Notes: generated by a model from the letters alone, not told the origin. Positions 15,712-23,020 are shown, counted from the stretch's first letter. The stretch: DNA of 64,000 nucleotides from Adlercreutzia sp. ZJ141 (GCF_011038965.1 NZ_JAAKEB010000003.1:1-64000); one strand, 5' to 3'. A program made the numbers and translations.

Positions 15712-16173
15712 ATGGCGCAACCCATTTCAATCTATCTTTCCGATGATACTCTGGTAAAGCTTGATGAGCTGGTGCGCGAGCGGGCCGAGCAGGACCGCTG
15801 CCAGGGTCTTGAGGGTCGCCAGGTAACCAATCGGTCAAAGCTGATAGGGCGGCTCATTGACGAGCGGTTTGGTGAGAGACCTCGGCTTGCAACGGAGACT
15901 ATTCGGTATGCCGTGGTTGATCTTGCCCGGCAATATGGGGCGGCTAAGGTGAGCCTGTTCGGTTCATATGCGCGCGGAGAGGCGCGGCCGGACTCGGACG
16001 TAGACATTCTGCTGGAAAAAGGCGCAATCAAAGGCATGCAGGTTCTTGACTTCCAGGAGGATCTGTCGCGCGTTTTGGGCCGTCCTGTGGACGTGGTTAC
16101 CACGGCTGGCGCAAGTAAGCGCTTCCTCGAGAGAATTAAGCCAGATGCCATAGTCCTCTACGAAGCCGCGTGA
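15712..16173 (+). CDS. MNT-type nucleotidyltransferase antitoxin with RHH-like N-terminus
   Basis: A 153-residue protein in two parts. Residues 4-54 (SIYLSDDTLVKLDELVRE... SKLIGRLIDERF) look like a ribbon-helix-helix DNA-binding unit: a short strand then two helices. Residues about 63-150 are a minimal nucleotidyltransferase with the GSX10DXD motif (G84 S85, D96, D98). MntA antitoxins of this type AMPylate their HEPN partner. The stop codon lies 8 bases before the toxin ATG. The ribosome site GGAGG is upstream. The DNA-binding half is inferred from pattern only. Confidence 0.75.
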   Translation: MAQPISIYLSDDTLVKLDELVRERAEQDRCQGLEGRQVTNRSKLIGRLIDERFGERPRLATETIRYAVVDLARQYGAAKVSLFGSYARGEARPDSDVDILLEKGAIKGMQVLDFQEDLSRVLGRPVDVVTTAGASKRFLERIKPDAIVLYEAA

Positions 16174-16181
16174 GGTGTAAC

Positions 16182-16529
16182 ATGGATCAACACGAAAGAG
16201 ACATTGAGCAGTTGCACACAATCCTGCGCTACTGCGAAAGGCTAGAGGTGGCCAAGGCACACTTCGAAGATTCGTTCGATCGTTTTCAAGATACGGAGCC
16301 CTTCCAAGACAGCTGCAGCTTGTGCCTTATCCAAATCGGGGAGGCGGTCAATCGTCTTTCTGAGGCCTTCTGTGAATCTCATCCCGAAATACCCTGGTCA
16401 AAGATTTACGGAATGCGCTGCCATTTAGTTCATGGCTACGAGATGTTCGATGCGGAAATCGCCTGGGATGCCATTCAGAGCCACATCCCCCCGTTGCGTG
16501 CGTTTTGCGAAGAGCGCGTGTGCGAATAG
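16182..16529 (+). CDS. HEPN-domain toxin, HepT/DUF86 family
   Basis: A 115-residue all-helical HEPN protein. It carries the RX4HXY signature as R79, H84 and Y86 (RCHLVHGYE). In characterised HepT toxins R and H form the RNase site and Y is AMPylated by the MntA partner. The ATG at 16182 is preferred over an in-frame GTG at 16170 because GAGGTG sits 4-5 bases upstream. Antitoxin and toxin form one operon. It lies within the first accessory segment. Confidence 0.8.
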   Translation: MDQHERDIEQLHTILRYCERLEVAKAHFEDSFDRFQDTEPFQDSCSLCLIQIGEAVNRLSEAFCESHPEIPWSKIYGMRCHLVHGYEMFDAEIAWDAIQSHIPPLRAFCEERVCE

Positions 16530-16547
16530 CGTCGAAAGGCGCGCGAG

Positions 16548-16581
16548 TGACCCTATTGTCACACCCTGACCCTATTGTCAC
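16548..16581. repeat. Two copies of TGACCCTATTGTCAC
   Basis: Exact copies at 16548-16562 and 16567-16581, just after the toxin gene. Close variants occur at 39995-40047 and 48919-48933. The word itself is a weak palindrome (TGAC...GTCA). It belongs to a small dispersed family found only in accessory gaps of this window. Confidence 0.75.
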
Positions 16582-16585
16582 CTCA

Positions 16586-16617
16586 AACTTGCTCTTAACA
16601 TATGCTAAGAGCAAGTT
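16586..16617. terminator. Perfect 12-bp hairpin after the toxin-antitoxin pair
   Basis: AACTTGCTCTTA, an 8-base loop, then TAAGAGCAAGTT. It lies 57 bases past the toxin stop codon and next to the TGACCC repeats. There is no T tract; it may protect or end the toxin-antitoxin transcript. Confidence 0.45.
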
Positions 16618-16680
16618 AAGCATTGTTCGTCAAAAGGGGGAAGATTCAGAAAAGGTGGCCCTTATAAGTCCGGAGGTCCT

Positions 16681-16815
16681 GTGGAAGCTGCGCAACCTGA
16701 AGTTGATAGGATAGACGTTGTAGCTGAGGTCTCGCAACCCGAATCCGAAAATACGATACAGGTCATAGAAAGGGTAGACGGATATTATTTACGCGATGGA
16801 GCTCCGACAATCTGA
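16681..16815 (+). CDS. Possible 44-residue protein or gene fragment
   Basis: A GTG at 16681 with GGAGG 4 bases upstream opens a 44-codon acidic frame ending TGA at 16815 (part reads VIERVDGYYLRDGAPT). The same frame is open further upstream to about 16630 without an ATG. No family is recognised. It could be a small protein or the tail of a decayed gene. The rest of the 16530-16963 gap holds only repeats and hairpins. Confidence 0.25.
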   Translation: MEAAQPEVDRIDVVAEVSQPESENTIQVIERVDGYYLRDGAPTI

Positions 16816-16837
16816 ATAGGCTGAAGCAGCACATAAA

Positions 16838-16888
16838 ACAATAGACCGAATCCAATGAGCTTGCAGCAAGCTGGACTCGGTCTATTGT
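16838..16888. terminator. Long stem-loop
   Basis: ACAATAGACCGA pairs perfectly with TCGGTCTATTGT, with an inner CTTGC/GCAAG stem. On the plus strand it is followed by TG only. It is the outer of two long hairpins between the 44-codon frame and the minus-strand cytochrome operon. Confidence 0.5.
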
Positions 16889-16891
16889 TGT

Positions 16892-16938
16892 GATTGTCTT
16901 CCGCCGAAGAGAGAGGGGAAGGAAGGCGGAAGACAATC
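16892..16938 (-). terminator. Terminator of the cytochrome operon
   Basis: GATTGTCTTCCGCC pairs perfectly with GGCGGAAGACAATC over a 19-base loop, 26 bases past the end of the pentaheme cytochrome gene. The 14-bp GC-containing stem is strong; no clear T tract follows. Confidence 0.55.
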
Positions 16939-16963
16939 TTTAGGAAAGAAGTGGCATTACGAA

Positions 16964-17758
16964 TTAGCCTTGCTTGCCCTCGTTAGGGCTAAATTGGTTG
17001 TCGGAGCGCCAGTTGCGATACATCTCCTGATCGTATGCCCAATCGGTGTATGTTTCTTCGCCGTTATCGCCAGGCATTGCCCAAATGTGGCACTGAGAGC
17101 AGTAGAACGAGTCGGTTTTCTGGTGAATCTTGTGGCAGTCGCCGCAGGCAACGTTGGTACCGTGAGCCAAGTGCGGGTTGATGGGGTAAGAGGTGTACTC
17201 TTCCCAAGTCATCTGGCCTTCTGCTTGTTCGTCAGAAAGACGCCAATCCCACATCTCGGTTCCCTTGCCCCAATCGGCGGTCTGCTCGATCACATAGTCG
17301 TAGTCATCGTGGCAGCTCGCGCAGTACTCTTTAAACGTGATGTCCACCTCGAAATCACCCGCTTCGTTGACTCCAAGGGTGTGGCAGTTGGTGCAATTGC
17401 CCATGGTGTCTTCGGAGAAGTACTGCTTCATTTCGTCAGCGTGCTCACCCATAATGCGGTCAGTTTCTTCGGTGGTTTCGCCTGCATCGTACTTCGAGAG
17501 GATATCCATATGGGTTTGCATGAGATCACCGGTCATATTGAACTGTTCAGGCAGTGAGGCATGGCAGCTCTGGCAATTCTGATGGTCGGCTGTCACCGCC
17601 ATTGATGCCTGGTCGATATGATCGTCGGGGATAACAGCGGTGGTTTTGCTTCCAGAAGAGCAGGCTACTAGACACAATCCTGCAGTGAGGGCGGCAACCG
17701 CACAGGCAATAATCGCCTTCCCGCGCAGGCCACGCCGTTGTTTTGTCAGGTCTTTCAA
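16964..17758 (-). CDS. pentaheme c-type cytochrome lipoprotein (NrfB-like role)
   Basis: A 264-residue exported cytochrome. A charged start, a hydrophobic helix and the lipobox LVAC (C33) mark it as a lipoprotein. Five CxxCH heme sites are visible at residues 62, 122, 146, 205 and 220. It is the last gene of a four-gene operon after an NrfD-like and an NrfC-like subunit, so it probably carries electrons from the quinol-oxidising membrane unit to the flavoprotein encoded first. The NrfB comparison rests on heme number and context. The two wide heme gaps differ from compact NrfB. Confidence 0.85.
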   Translation of the reverse strand: MKDLTKQRRGLRGKAIIACAVAALTAGLCLVACSSGSKTTAVIPDDHIDQASMAVTADHQNCQSCHASLPEQFNMTGDLMQTHMDILSKYDAGETTEETDRIMGEHADEMKQYFSEDTMGNCTNCHTLGVNEAGDFEVDITFKEYCASCHDDYDYVIEQTADWGKGTEMWDWRLSDEQAEGQMTWEEYTSYPINPHLAHGTNVACGDCHKIHQKTDSFYCSQCHIWAMPGDNGEETYTDWAYDQEMYRNWRSDNQFSPNEGKQG

Positions 17759-17813
17759 TTGATGACACCTCCTAAGGTGCGTTGTTTCCAGCTGATGGTG
17801 CTTCTTTGTGGTT

Positions 17814-18776
17814 CTAGTACAGAAGCCGACTTACTGCGTCGGTGATGTAGTCGGCGTGAGTGCCGGCCAGAAGCACCAGGAAGCGAAGTGCGCAGCCACC
17901 TGCAAGTGCGCATACCGCGCCACCGATACTGGCCCACTTCGCACTGGCCTTTTCGCCCATGGCGATGCTGGCAAGAGCGGCGGCAAAGGGGACTGCAAGA
18001 CCGATACCAACAAAGAGAATCCAGAACCAGCCAGACAAATCGCCGCTTACCAGCAGTTGTGCCGAACTTGCCGCAGCAAGTGTGGCAGTGTCGTTGCCTA
18101 CGGTGGAAACTTCGCCGCCGGCAAGCATGGTGGACATAAATGCGAACACTATGATTGCCTCAACAGCAACTAAGATCAAAACCGCGATTTCCATAATTCT
18201 CGAGGTGCGATGTGCCTCTTCATCTTTGCGAAGCCACTGGAAGAGGATCATTGTCAAAGCTAGGCCGGTGTCGAGTGCTGAAACCGTGAATAAGCAGGGC
18301 AGTAGTGCGGTTCCCCAGAACGGAATGCCGTCGGCCAGCATCAAAAGAACACCGGTGTAAACTGCAACGCCAGCAGCACATACGATGCCAACTATCGAAA
18401 GAACTCGACATACAAGTGTAGCCTTCTCTTCGGCAACCTTCGCGATCTTCCCAGATAAGATAACAGCGTTTGCGAAAATAACTATCATGGTTGCCATGAG
18501 CAGCCATGCGCCGATGGCCATAAGGGAACCAAAGTTGCTGAAGCTTTGCCACACCATCAAACCGCGCAAGGGGCTGGTGAGCTCGGTCAGCAGGAGCAGC
18601 AGGCCAACTGCCAAGCACGCGATAGATGCAAGTGAGGAAATAAACGCAAGCTTCTTATTCTTTGCTGGATCAATTAAGTAGAGCACAGCGGCTGTAATAA
18701 ACGCGCCAGCACCCACGCCGCCGAGGAAAAGGTATAAGGCGGGCTGCCATCCCCATACCGTTTGAAACTCAATCAT
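17814..18776 (-). CDS. NrfD/PsrC-like membrane quinol oxidoreductase subunit
   Basis: A 320-residue protein with about eight hydrophobic segments and the N-terminal WGWQPALYLFLGGVGAGAF typical of the NrfD/PsrC family. The family oxidises or reduces menaquinone and passes electrons to a NrfC-type ferredoxin subunit. It starts 18 bases after that subunit gene. It probably anchors the complex and feeds electrons outward from menaquinol. Confidence 0.88.
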   Translation of the reverse strand: MIEFQTVWGWQPALYLFLGGVGAGAFITAAVLYLIDPAKNKKLAFISSLASIACLAVGLLLLLTELTSPLRGLMVWQSFSNFGSLMAIGAWLLMATMIVIFANAVILSGKIAKVAEEKATLVCRVLSIVGIVCAAGVAVYTGVLLMLADGIPFWGTALLPCLFTVSALDTGLALTMILFQWLRKDEEAHRTSRIMEIAVLILVAVEAIIVFAFMSTMLAGGEVSTVGNDTATLAAASSAQLLVSGDLSGWFWILFVGIGLAVPFAAALASIAMGEKASAKWASIGGAVCALAGGCALRFLVLLAGTHADYITDAVSRLLY

Positions 18777-18794
18777 CTTTACTCCTTAGGGTTT

Positions 18795-19439
18795 CTAGGA
18801 CAGCAGATACGAGGGGCTCGTTGGAGCGGTGATCTGCATGGCCCTTCCGCCGGACTCTTTGATAAGGTCGTCAATGGGTCCGAAATGCAGCGCTCCGTTA
18901 GCAACAGCCTCCACGCAAGCAGGTGCCTTTCCTTCGGTGCGGCCGGCAGATAGACACGCATCGCATTTGACCATTCCGGAAGCGTTGTAACGGGGTACAT
19001 CGAAGGGGCAGGCGGTGTTGCAGTATTTGCACCCTATGCACCGGTCGTGGTCTACTACTACAATGCCGTCTTCCTGTTGTTTGGAAATGGCGCTTGCTGG
19101 GCAGGCTTTCATGCAAGACGGGTCAGCGCAATGCATGCACGAGGTGAACACGTGGCGATAACGGCCGTACTTACTCAGGTAGTCGCGCACCTCGCAAAGT
19201 GCCTCTTCGTCGGCGGGAATATTATTGGCGGTGCGACAGGCTTCAACGCATTCCTTAAAATCGTTGTTGAACGAAGTGTCGCACCAGAAACCGTACTGAA
19301 CGGTTTCTCCTGTTTCTCCGGAATCGGCAACTGCTTGCCCTGTGGGGAACACCAGCTTGCCTCCCACAAGAAACGCGCATCCAAGGGCGGCGCCCCCAGC
19401 GACCAGGGATCGCCGGGAAATGTTTTGGGATTCTAACAT
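18795..19439 (-). CDS. Tat-exported four-cluster ferredoxin subunit (NrfC-like)
   Basis: A 214-residue iron-sulfur protein. It starts with a twin-arginine signal (SRRSLVAGGAALG) and has four cysteine groups, including CMHCADPSCMKACP and CIGCKYCNTACP, enough for four [4Fe-4S] clusters. Export by Tat places it outside the membrane, opposite to cytoplasmic partners but like NrfC. It lies between the flavoprotein gene (41-base gap) and the NrfD gene. It should link the quinol site to the pentaheme cytochrome. Confidence 0.9.
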   Translation of the reverse strand: MLESQNISRRSLVAGGAALGCAFLVGGKLVFPTGQAVADSGETGETVQYGFWCDTSFNNDFKECVEACRTANNIPADEEALCEVRDYLSKYGRYRHVFTSCMHCADPSCMKACPASAISKQQEDGIVVVDHDRCIGCKYCNTACPFDVPRYNASGMVKCDACLSAGRTEGKAPACVEAVANGALHFGPIDDLIKESGGRAMQITAPTSPSYLLS

Positions 19440-19480
19440 GATGGGTTACTCCTTTAGAACTCGATGGAGACAATGCAGGG

Positions 19481-21259
19481 TTAGGCTTCGAGACCTAAGA
19501 TGTAGGCGGCCGAGTTCTCGCCGCTGATGCGGCCCATGCCAAGCGCGTAGCCCTGAACTGAGCCGGGAATCTTGATGCCCGTAGTCTGACTCTGGAATCC
19601 GCCGCAATCCATGCCAGCAACGTAGAGACCTGGAATCGACTTTCCCTGTCGGGTTGTTACCTCGCCCTTGTTGTTGCAGTGGATGCCGCCTTTCTGGGAG
19701 ATGATCATGGCCTTCAGGCGAGCGCCGTAGAAGGGGGGTCTACGCACCGCTTCCAGATAGTCTTTGGGCTTGAAGAATTCGGTGTCTTCTCCTGCATCCA
19801 CCATGGCGTTGTAGTGCTCAATTGTTTCCATGGCTGTTTCAACAGGAAGTTGCATCTGCTCGAACATCTCTTCGAGGGAATCTGTCTTGAAGACATAGGG
19901 GTTGCCCTTGGCAATTTCCTCATCGCATTCCGCTTCGGCGTTTAGCAGCTGCTCACCGGGGTATGCATATTGTGCCCATCCGTTTACCACGCCTTTGGTC
20001 TTGTAGTAGTCCATAGCGTTCTGGTCGAACACCACGAAGGTGCGGTCTTGCGACTCTACCGCGTTGACCGGCGGATACACTTGCTTGTTCGCGGCCTCGT
20101 TGTAGAAGCGCAGGCCGTCTTGGTTCAGCCAAACGCCACGCGACTCCATGGCTGCGGCGATGTTGAGATGCGATTCCAACATGAGTGGCTCGATGCCAGC
20201 AGCAAAACCAGGGCCACCGAAGCGGAATGGCTTGCCCATGCCTGCCTCGACTGCCAGCATGATGCCGTCGCCGGTAACGGTGGGAATGCCATGCCAGAAC
20301 TGGTTGTCGGTGTTGCGTTCGCTCCATCGCTCGATTAGGTCTTTGTTGGCGCCGGCACCAGCTGTGGCGAGCACGGCAGCTTTGATGTGTATGTTGATAC
20401 ACTTACCATCGGATGTGAGGCATTGCATGCCGACCAAGGTGCCGTTGTCCATAAGCACGTGGATGGCACGTGTGTTCAGCAGAATTTGAGCGCCAGCCTT
20501 ACGACAGGCGTCAGCCAGAGCGTTGCACATCTCGTGCCCGCGGTTATGCTTGTAGAAGTGGTGCGTGGGTAATCCGTAGCGCCCACCGCCACAGCCAACA
20601 ATTGTGTCTGGTCCGCATGTGTCAATAAGCCACTGCAAATCGGTGGAATTGCGCTTGAAGACTGCGCGCCACAGCGTTGAATTGCAGATGTAGTGATGAT
20701 GGTCGTATTCCTGCTGTAAGATGAAGTCGACATTGATGTCTTCGCTGGAATAACCCAGTTCGTGTTGCCACTTGGTATCAATACCGGTGATGCCTTCAGC
20801 TTGTGCCGACTGGCCTCCCACATCGTCGGCGCGCTCAACGATAATCACGTTTTTCACGCCGTTTTGCATGGCTGTCAATGCAGCGGTCATGCCACCAAGA
20901 CCTGCGCCAACGCAGAGCAGATCGCAGGTCATTTCTTCGTCGGGTTCGTCTATGAACTCAGGCATCGCCCACGGGCTGTTCGCAGGTACCGCTTCCACGA
21001 TAGGCCCGATAGTGGGGTTTTTCGTGTTCACGATGGGAATGGTGGAATAGGTCTGGCCCGAGGCTCCGGTTGTTCCGGCGGCCTTTTCCATAACCGACAC
21101 GTTCGCCTGCTTGTCAATCGACTGCGCGCCTGGGGTACACCCGGCAAGGCCCAATGTTGCGGCCCCGGCGCCTGCCAAAGCAAGACCGCTTAGGAACTCG
21201 CGTCGACTTACGCCCCCCTTGTCGCGCTGATCGAAAGACGACAGCTTTTCCTTCGTCAT
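19481..21259 (-). CDS. Tat-exported FAD-dependent reductase, fumarate reductase family
   Basis: A 592-residue flavoprotein and probable terminal reductase. It has a twin-arginine signal with lipobox (SRREFLSGLAL...LAGC), then an FAD-binding domain with GAGLGGMTAA and an ADP-binding acidic residue in VIVERADD. The fumarate-reductase-type capping and active-site segments include RGVWLNQDGLRFYNE, and the C-terminal FAD loop is TTGIKIPGSVQGYALGMGR. It has no heme or FMN-carrier domain, so electrons must come from the partner proteins. GGAGAGGAAG precedes the ATG at 21259. The electron acceptor cannot be assigned from sequence. Confidence 0.88.
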   Translation of the reverse strand: MTKEKLSSFDQRDKGGVSRREFLSGLALAGAGAATLGLAGCTPGAQSIDKQANVSVMEKAAGTTGASGQTYSTIPIVNTKNPTIGPIVEAVPANSPWAMPEFIDEPDEEMTCDLLCVGAGLGGMTAALTAMQNGVKNVIIVERADDVGGQSAQAEGITGIDTKWQHELGYSSEDINVDFILQQEYDHHHYICNSTLWRAVFKRNSTDLQWLIDTCGPDTIVGCGGGRYGLPTHHFYKHNRGHEMCNALADACRKAGAQILLNTRAIHVLMDNGTLVGMQCLTSDGKCINIHIKAAVLATAGAGANKDLIERWSERNTDNQFWHGIPTVTGDGIMLAVEAGMGKPFRFGGPGFAAGIEPLMLESHLNIAAAMESRGVWLNQDGLRFYNEAANKQVYPPVNAVESQDRTFVVFDQNAMDYYKTKGVVNGWAQYAYPGEQLLNAEAECDEEIAKGNPYVFKTDSLEEMFEQMQLPVETAMETIEHYNAMVDAGEDTEFFKPKDYLEAVRRPPFYGARLKAMIISQKGGIHCNNKGEVTTRQGKSIPGLYVAGMDCGGFQSQTTGIKIPGSVQGYALGMGRISGENSAAYILGLEA

Positions 21260-21354
21260 CTTCCTCTCCTTCCGTACTGTGCTTCTTTTCTGGCTTTCCC
21301 AGAAATCCTTAGACACTGTACGGGGCAAGGCTTCTCTTATCTATTCGTTAGGGT

Positions 21355-21385
21355 GGTATATTCCTTCTCTACCCCCGGGTATATT
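21355..21385 (-). promoter_or_regulatory. Paired GGTATATT motif upstream of the reductase operon
   Basis: GGTATATT occurs at 21355-21362 and 21378-21385, 23 bases apart, about 100 bases before the flavoprotein start and right after the LuxR regulator gene. Two copies spaced by about two helical turns suit a dimeric activator such as the neighbouring LuxR protein. This is a guess from position. Confidence 0.35.
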
Positions 21386-21414
21386 TTTTCGATAAGGCTT
21401 GTTTACCAGGTGTT

Positions 21415-22779
21415 TTACCTAACTTGTTCCTGGAGCAGACGCATGAGATCGTCTTTGCTATGTACGTTGAACTTCTTGTAAATATGGGCGATATGGGTGT
21501 GTGCTGTGCCTTTTTCAACAACCAGCCGATCTGCGATTTCCTGTTCGGTTAATCCCTCAATCATAAGTCCGAGCACCTCTTGTTCACGGTTTGTTAGTCT
21601 ATGGGCTTCGGCAGCGGATCGTACCGTGGAAAGGTTCTTCTCAAGGCTGGGGGCTGCTTCGCTGTTGGAGAACCATTCGTTTGACATAACGAACAGAGAA
21701 ACAACCAGCACAAGTGCCAATAGGCACGCGTTCTGAACAAGAGGAAACGACGTCACTGGCACAACAGAGAGTGCTATAGGGGCGGCTATCATGGAAACCA
21801 GATGGGCGCCGTACACGATCACGGTTCCCGTGCCAAAGAGTAACCAGCGTACAGTTGGTTTGTCGTGAGCGAGTTTTATCGTGGCAAGCAGAAGAAACAT
21901 TCGCGTTAGGATGAGTGATGACCCCATCAAAAGGACGAAGATCTCTCCCATATCCAAGGGTACGATTTCGCTAAGGAGCAGGGCTCCCGCCGAAACGGGG
22001 AGCGTGATTCGGCACACTGACAATATGCCTACACGTTGACAGAACACAAACAGCACGATAAGGCATACAGCTCCGACCGCTTCTTCAGCAATCTCCATCC
22101 ATGGGGTGATGTAATAGGCAGCGAAGAACATGTTGCGAGAGAAGAAATGGATAAACGAAACAGTGAAAAGGAGCGCGAATATTCCTACGACAAGCCGTTT
22201 TGAATACTGCAAGGTGTTTGCTCCTAGCACCTCGAGACCTTCGTCGTTTTGGGGTGTTTCCTCTTCAAAATCGCCTACAAACAGCGTGAAGGCTGAAAAG
22301 ACCCCAGCGATGATTGCAACCAGTAGAGGGTTGGTTCCGATTGCAATAGTCATGGCGACAAGGGCCGAAGCGGCTCCCCATCCCACCAGCGCCATGAATA
22401 CCATATCTCGCTCATTTAAATGTGAAAGCTCGTCGTACCAGGCGATTATGAGGATTCCACCGGATAAGCCCAACAAGGCAGCTCCGAGAAATCTATTGTC
22501 GGTCAGAGCAATTACGCATGTTCCGATACAAAACAGAATTGCCGACGAGATAGCCAGTGGTGCTCGGTATCTCCTTTGCTCTATGGCTGGCATAGCCAAC
22601 GTGAGTACAACGGTGGCAAGCAAAACACCCACAAGGAAGACTGTCGGCGTACCATGACCGGCTCCTTGGATGTGACGAAGAAAGTACAGCGAGCCAATAA
22701 CGAAGAACCTACTGAACCCGAACCCAAGATAGCGCCATTTCTCTTTAAGTAGTCGGTGTTTCCCCCACGTTGCGTTCAT
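21415..22779 (-). CDS. LuxR-family regulator with polytopic membrane domain
   Basis: A 454-residue regulator. About twelve hydrophobic segments fill residues 1-370, then a linker and a LuxR-type helix-turn-helix at the C-terminus (LTNREQEVLGLMIEGLTEQEIADRL...HTHIAHIYKKF). It has no receiver domain. Such membrane LuxR proteins are frequent in Eggerthella relatives beside reductase operons and probably sense the substrate. The ATG at 22779 has GGAGGGG just upstream. It is transcribed in the same direction as the operon it probably controls, 156 bases upstream. Confidence 0.83.
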   Translation of the reverse strand: MNATWGKHRLLKEKWRYLGFGFSRFFVIGSLYFLRHIQGAGHGTPTVFLVGVLLATVVLTLAMPAIEQRRYRAPLAISSAILFCIGTCVIALTDNRFLGAALLGLSGGILIIAWYDELSHLNERDMVFMALVGWGAASALVAMTIAIGTNPLLVAIIAGVFSAFTLFVGDFEEETPQNDEGLEVLGANTLQYSKRLVVGIFALLFTVSFIHFFSRNMFFAAYYITPWMEIAEEAVGAVCLIVLFVFCQRVGILSVCRITLPVSAGALLLSEIVPLDMGEIFVLLMGSSLILTRMFLLLATIKLAHDKPTVRWLLFGTGTVIVYGAHLVSMIAAPIALSVVPVTSFPLVQNACLLALVLVVSLFVMSNEWFSNSEAAPSLEKNLSTVRSAAEAHRLTNREQEVLGLMIEGLTEQEIADRLVVEKGTAHTHIAHIYKKFNVHSKDDLMRLLQEQVR

Positions 22780-22935
22780 TTCCCCTCCAAAAGCAAGCAG
22801 TACAATTCCGGCTTGGGCGGATGAACCTGCGAGCCGGAGAATCAAGCCTTATCGGCCAAATATCTACGGAGAAAAACGGGGGCAATTGTAGCACATGTGC
22901 CGGTATTCATCATGTGTTGCGTCATCATGTATCAT

Positions 22936-22947
22936 GAGAGCGCTCTC
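22936..22947. promoter_or_regulatory. Perfect 12-bp palindrome GAGAGCGCTCTC
   Basis: This palindrome sits midway in the 241-base divergent gap between the LuxR gene and the DUF512 gene, after a run of ATCATG words (22908-22935). It could be an operator for either gene. No -10/-35 pair is convincing. Confidence 0.35.
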
Positions 22948-23020
22948 TGGCAAAGGCGCTTATCTGTTGCGCGCTTCAGGAGTGCGATGCTGGTTGACGA
23001 GGTAAGGAAAGTGGGCGCGT

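Follow-up and report, generated by a model that had tools for sequence, protein, structure and literature searches.

The 64,000-nucleotide stretch of Adlercreutzia sp. ZJ141 DNA analysed here (the window), carried on contig C24 of the 2.29-Mb genome, contains a minus-strand operon at 16964-21259 that probably encodes an inducible, extracytoplasmic menaquinol:organic-acceptor reductase for anaerobic respiration, the substrate side being predicted. Menaquinol would be oxidised by an NrfD-like protein on the outer side of the membrane, and the electrons would pass through an NrfC-like ferredoxin with three clusters to a lipid-anchored pentaheme cytochrome. The cytochrome would deliver them to the FAD of a Tat-exported, lipid-anchored flavoprotein, which in turn may reduce a polarised C=C bond (or a similar group) of the organic acceptor. 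A neighbouring transmembrane LuxR-type regulator (TM-LuxR) probably induces the operon when this acceptor is present. We infer the partnership of the four proteins, the direction of electron flow, the reductase chemistry and the inducer. A chain from quinol through hemes to a flavoprotein, as proposed in the first-pass annotation, is still the best reading of these genes. It is supported by the export signals, the lack of an internal donor domain in the flavoprotein, the quinol-site residues of the NrfD-like protein, and the recurrence of the same components in four other loci.

ORF calls agree with the gene positions and order originally reported. The flavoprotein gene (19481-21259, 592 aa, ATG start) is followed by the genes for an NrfC/DmsB-like Tat-exported ferredoxin (18795-19439, 214 aa), an NrfD/PsrC-like quinol subunit (17814-18776, 320 aa), and a pentaheme c3-type cytochrome lipoprotein (16964-17758, TTG start with AGGAGG), all on the minus strand. 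The intergenic gaps measure 41, 18, and 55 bp, and each gene is preceded by a purine-rich ribosome-binding site (RBS). On the same strand, 3' of the cytochrome gene, RNA folding predicted two strong stem-loops (16938-16892 and 16889-16837) that likely represent the terminator, with a folding energy of -57.5 kcal/mol for 16824-16964 (z -9.3) and UUUUA following the second hairpin. They are absent from the list of a consensus terminator scan, which permits short loops only. Because of the tight gaps, the RBSs, and the strong terminal hairpins, the order of the four genes is no chance arrangement. The GC content over 16-23 kb is 0.530, compared with a mean of 0.571, and is the lowest among 114 stretches of 7 kb in the window. 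This dip may point to acquisition but is no proof of it.

The flavoprotein carries a twin-arginine (Tat) motif, SRREFL, and a lipobox, LAGC. Because of such Tat and lipobox signals, both the flavoprotein and the cytochrome are placed outside the cytoplasm. PF00890 (FAD_binding_2) matches residues 113-555 of the flavoprotein with 116.7 bits, and the dinucleotide motifs GAGLGG, GDG, and GLYVAG are present. The FAD motifs are also intact on alignment, which disposes of the objection, raised with the original proposal, that contacts to FAD might be missing. A Pfam scan detected neither a heme domain nor a flavinylated FMN_bind domain, in line with the earlier description of a flavoprotein without hemes of its own. 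Among 59 curated models the best match is VprA (NF053717) with 267.3 bits, which lies far below the cut-off of 600 bits and does not make the protein a member of this group. Within the family, only three further genomes contain homologs, with 37-42% identity, and the three homologs tested likewise score best on VprA (323-381 bits). When named genomes were scanned with the flavoprotein alignment, the only match was in Raoultibacter timonensis; this organism is a member of the Eggerthellaceae. In the flavoprotein tree the window protein groups with the proteins of loci L029-L032 (100/99). No multiheme or NrfD gene was found beside these closest relatives in the regions read, and this counts against a chain of the proposed kind. 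An AlphaFold model of the flavoprotein, computed with one relative (L122) in the alignment, had a pLDDT of 34, too low for the model to be usable.

The direction of electron flow is not fixed by sequence, which also counts against the proposed chain. The main rival is a reversal, in which the flavoprotein would dehydrogenate an organic donor and the cytochrome and NrfCD pair would pass the electrons to menaquinone in a Qrc-like manner. Such a role would be compatible with the breadth of PF00890, which takes in dehydrogenases, with the occurrence of the KstD and TcuA models among the flavoprotein matches, and with the precedent of Qrc, a cytochrome c3:menaquinone oxidoreductase containing an NrfCD-type module (PMC6303296). 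However, those exported PF00890 proteins of this family whose functions are known are reductases (PMC8238504; Cgr2, PMC5953540), and so is VprA, the best model for the flavoprotein. Reverse flow thus appears unlikely, although it fares best among the alternatives.

The closest relatives of the flavoprotein in the PDB are Ifc3, Fcc3, and UrdA, which could suggest a carboxylate reductase of the usual fumarate or urocanate type. The comparison with these characterised enzymes does not extend to the active site, for which residue roles were taken from PMC7921117. The catalytic arginine (R402 in Fcc3, R411 in UrdA), which four relatives of the window protein keep, is replaced by K392, and the carboxylate-binding His504 is replaced by S521. 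No arginine is found at the position of Arg544, where the window protein has T560 (K563 by pairwise alignment) and its relatives have tyrosine. Hence, of the initial assignment to Tat-exported FAD proteins of the fumarate reductase family, the Tat motif and the PF00890 domain stand, but by alignment the flavoprotein lacks the carboxylate pocket of fumarate and urocanate reductases. Because this carboxylate clamp is absent, the acceptor is unlikely to bind in the manner of fumarate and would probably not be held by a clamp of the fumarate/urocanate type. With neither the catalytic arginine nor the two carboxylate-binding residues conserved, a conventional carboxylate reductase is very unlikely. 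The exchange of the relatives' conserved Arg and Tyr for Lys and Thr also counts against the preferred reading of the operon as a working menaquinol:organic-acceptor reductase.

The ferredoxin, with its RR motif for Tat export and a Fer4_11 domain, was first described as a four-cluster protein, but only 13 of the 16 cluster cysteines are kept; N58, F61, and V179 occupy the places of the others. In an alignment of 44 distinct NrfC-like proteins encoded beside NrfD genes, including that of the window, cysteines 58, 61, and 179 are present in all 43 other sequences and lost in the window protein alone. The first two of these positions are the first two cysteines of motif I, and the third is the last cysteine of motif IV. 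In proteins of this fold, one cluster is bound by cysteines one to three of motif I together with the final cysteine of motif IV. One cluster has thus been deprived of three of its four ligands, and on this alignment the protein is a ferredoxin with three canonical [4Fe-4S] clusters and a fourth one lost. The loss in this protein only, together with the two active-site changes of the flavoprotein relative to its kin and the location of the operon in the lowest-GC 7-kb stretch of the window, might suggest that the operon is a decaying copy and has ceased to function. This explanation is highly improbable, because all frames, export signals, RBSs, heme sites, and FAD motifs of the operon are intact and the lost cysteines are coherent, being three ligands of one cluster instead of scattered damage.

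The NrfD-like protein matches PF03916 with 120.3 bits and has eight hydrophobic segments. Its residues E65, S84, and R298 are invariant across ten aligned homologs and would correspond to the acid of the quinol site, the serine of the pocket, and the arginine of TMH8 described for NrfD complexes (PMC8076601), the residues being equated by spacing and helix only. With PF03916, eight transmembrane helices, an acid in TMH2, a pocket serine, and an arginine in TMH8, the protein has the features of the NrfD/PsrC superfamily. Sequence searches of the PDB with the protein and with a ten-row profile gave no matches. The cytochrome (P0004) is a lipoprotein with five CxxCH sites whose matches are of the cytochrome c3 type, and no NrfB model was among them. 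Its last two hemes show weak similarity to the Ifc3 heme domain (E 0.03), and an order-wide search retrieved no relative at E <= 1e-20. Proteins for cytochrome c assembly are encoded on contig C56. The likeness to the Nrf system noted in the first-pass annotation consequently holds for the PF03916 protein, the NrfC-like ferredoxin, and the five CxxCH sites, but it does not extend to NrfB or to the equivalogs of the other two subunits: the ferredoxin scores 101.6 bits on TIGR03149 (NrfC; cut-off 377.6) and the NrfD-like protein 75.1 bits on TIGR03148 (NrfD; cut-off 347.6).

The genome does encode one NrfA, with a CxxCK heme, on contig C37. No nrfH adjoins this gene, and no PF03264 protein was found in the genome. 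It might thus be argued that the NrfB-, NrfC-, and NrfD-like proteins feed this NrfA and that the flavoprotein gene is merely an unrelated first gene. However, contig C56, which also carries the cytochrome c assembly genes, encodes an NrfH-like multiheme protein, which has a single hydrophobic segment at its N terminus and is 34-67% identical to the product of the gene adjoining nrfA in 23 of 29 related loci. Because of this association NrfA likely has a donor of its own, and the module in the window is unlikely to serve it. Moreover, NrfA occurs in 34 of 40 genomes of the family, mostly without a cytochrome-NrfCD set among the loci examined, and in four other loci such a set likewise begins with a flavoprotein. 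NrfA was set aside as the partner of the operon on the grounds of the C56 donor candidate and its own wider spread, and its service by these genes can be considered most improbable.

Across the order, 39 of 397 genomes carry NrfD homologs of about 50% identity. Neighbourhoods were counted for 44 annotated NrfD genes, including that of the window: 27 lie beside a triheme PF00174 protein, seven beside DMSOR-type molybdenum enzymes, five (the window among them) beside a PF00890 flavoprotein and a cytochrome with 5-6 CxxCH sites, and one beside such a cytochrome alone, the remaining four having other contents. The notion that the arrangement arose by replacement of NrfA is not borne out, as the NrfCD pair in the family mostly sits with the triheme PF00174 proteins and the molybdenum enzymes. 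The four other flavoprotein-linked loci, all from Eggerthellaceae (L088, L091, L092, and L094), contain the same components on one strand, but not in the gene order of the window: their order is flavoprotein-cytochrome-NrfC-NrfD, whereas that of the window is flavoprotein-NrfC-NrfD-cytochrome. Their flavoproteins form a clade of their own (100/100), apart from the window protein, and are not its orthologs. Their cytochromes are 37-63% alike and match the window cytochrome only locally, and their ferredoxins keep all 16 cluster cysteines. In the NrfD tree, the window protein forms a long, unplaced branch. The most economical reading is that the NrfCD pair was recruited to exported flavoproteins at least twice. 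What speaks for separate origins is the flavoprotein tree together with the cytochromes and the gene order, and not the NrfD tree. A single origin of the flavoprotein-NrfCD sets, followed by exchange of their remaining parts, is compatible with that tree, in which one clade of all flavoprotein-linked NrfD proteins is not rejected (AU p 0.164).

The TM-LuxR gene (21415-22779, minus strand), which lies upstream of the flavoprotein gene, was not listed in the first-pass annotation. Its ATG at 22779 is preceded by the RBS GGAGGGG, and a TTG that would extend the gene to 22845 is also open. The protein has a C-terminal GerE helix-turn-helix domain (PF00196, 54.5 bits) and, by simple hydropathy, about 11-12 hydrophobic segments in its N-terminal part. 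This combination of an N-terminal transmembrane domain and a C-terminal GerE domain is the architecture of the 10-12-TM LuxR family of the Coriobacteriia (PMC9734109). The gene probably belongs to the flavoprotein unit, and its product is a candidate substrate-responsive activator. Between the two genes lies a 12-bp palindrome (21370-21381; TACCC-NN-GGGTA), a possible operator on weak evidence, as the pattern was picked post hoc; it is the sole copy in the window, where 0.01 would be expected. An operator shared among such loci was dismissed, as the palindrome is found before none of the other LuxR/flavoprotein loci.

Flavoproteins without hemes of their own that rely on a separate cytochrome are already known. 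The methacrylate redox system Mrd/Mcc of Geobacter sulfurreducens AM-1 combines, in one operon, a Tat-exported heme-free PF00890-type flavoprotein with a separate, Sec-exported multiheme donor (PMC4427408), and PMC8238504 contains 147 split flavoprotein/cytochrome clusters. In Mrd/Mcc, the electrons come from menaquinone and reach Mcc through a carrier that the authors state to be unknown; unlike in the window, no NrfC or NrfD genes are described and the substrate, methacrylate, is known (PMC4427408). The Cgr1/Cgr2 digoxin reductase of Eggerthella lenta, a member of the same bacterial family, shares with the operon a Tat-exported flavoprotein that lacks the fumarate reductase active-site residues, a separate cytochrome donor, and an adjoining TM-LuxR, but it uses one NapC/NrfH-type membrane cytochrome as donor and no NrfCD, and Cgr2 has a [4Fe-4S] cluster of its own (PMC5953540). 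VprA of Lactiplantibacillus plantarum, whose model best fits the window flavoprotein and its relatives, has a LysR regulator and was described without cytochromes (PMC10295242). On the quinone side, Escherichia coli-type NrfABCD also has an NrfD-like subunit, an NrfC-like ferredoxin, and a pentaheme cytochrome as successive carriers; the window operon differs in having no NrfA, besides the distance of its other subunits from the Nrf models. In QrcABCD and related NrfD complexes, too, a multiheme cytochrome is wired to a ferredoxin-NrfD quinone module (PMC6303296, PMC8076601). Qrc runs to menaquinone (PMC6303296), however, opposite to the direction presumed here, and the NrfD complexes listed in PMC8076601 have no flavoprotein partner. 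The literature searched, the coverage of which is incomplete, contained no instance of NrfCD serving such a flavoprotein as its dedicated quinol donor, so that a published case may exist.

Gut Eggerthellaceae possess many exported flavin and molybdenum reductases that act on drugs, dietary components, and host compounds, and it is often unclear how electrons reach these enzymes from the quinone pool. For one of them, the operon suggests a full path from quinol to an organic acceptor. The resident TM-LuxR offers a practical handle, as a compound induction screen could find this acceptor. More tentatively, and with the odds somewhat against so broad a view, Eggerthellaceae may on more than one occasion have joined NrfCD to exported flavoproteins that are unrelated to each other, with likewise unrelated multiheme cytochromes as the link. 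This would amount to a way of respiring organic acceptors that differs from the NapC/CymA-linked and FMN-linked routes, and the version in the window, with its three-cluster NrfC and a flavoprotein carrying Lys in place of the catalytic Arg, might reduce a compound whose binding does not depend on a carboxylate.

Directly downstream of the operon, on the opposite (plus) strand, lies a pair of genes for an MNT-like nucleotidyltransferase and a HepT-like protein (window 15712-16529), which likely constitutes a toxin-antitoxin module. The G+C content at window 16000-23000 is 0.530, compared to a mean of 0.571, and is the minimum among the 7-kb stretches of the window. Elsewhere in the source genome, nrfA (contig C37, 18687-19826; locus L028) and a gene for an NrfH-like protein (contig C56, 43826; locus L049) are separated, whereas they are located side by side in most relatives. 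The NrfH-like protein was not matched by the PF03264 model.

Among the examined NrfD loci of Eggerthellaceae, the most frequent partner of the NrfC-like ferredoxin and NrfD-like quinol subunit (NrfCD) is a sulfite-oxidase-type PF00174 protein with three CxxCH motifs, encoded with NrfCD at L083 (3149-7819) and at 26 more NrfD loci (for example L086, L089, L102, L109, L112, and L117), and adjoined by a second, smaller PF00174 protein. Behind NrfCD operons of this PF00174 type, a PF00890 flavoprotein is located at L083 (8386-10819) and L095 (4603-6792), and also at L082, L084, and L096. This flavoprotein is apparently divided between two ORFs, the second of which starts with a zinc ribbon and ends with an FMN_bind domain. 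A further flavin partner for an NrfCD pair is found at L103 (3791-8430), where the gene after those for the ferredoxin and NrfD codes for a protein of 893 aa that has an RR motif and contains old-yellow-enzyme, Pyr_redox_2, and FMN_bind domains.
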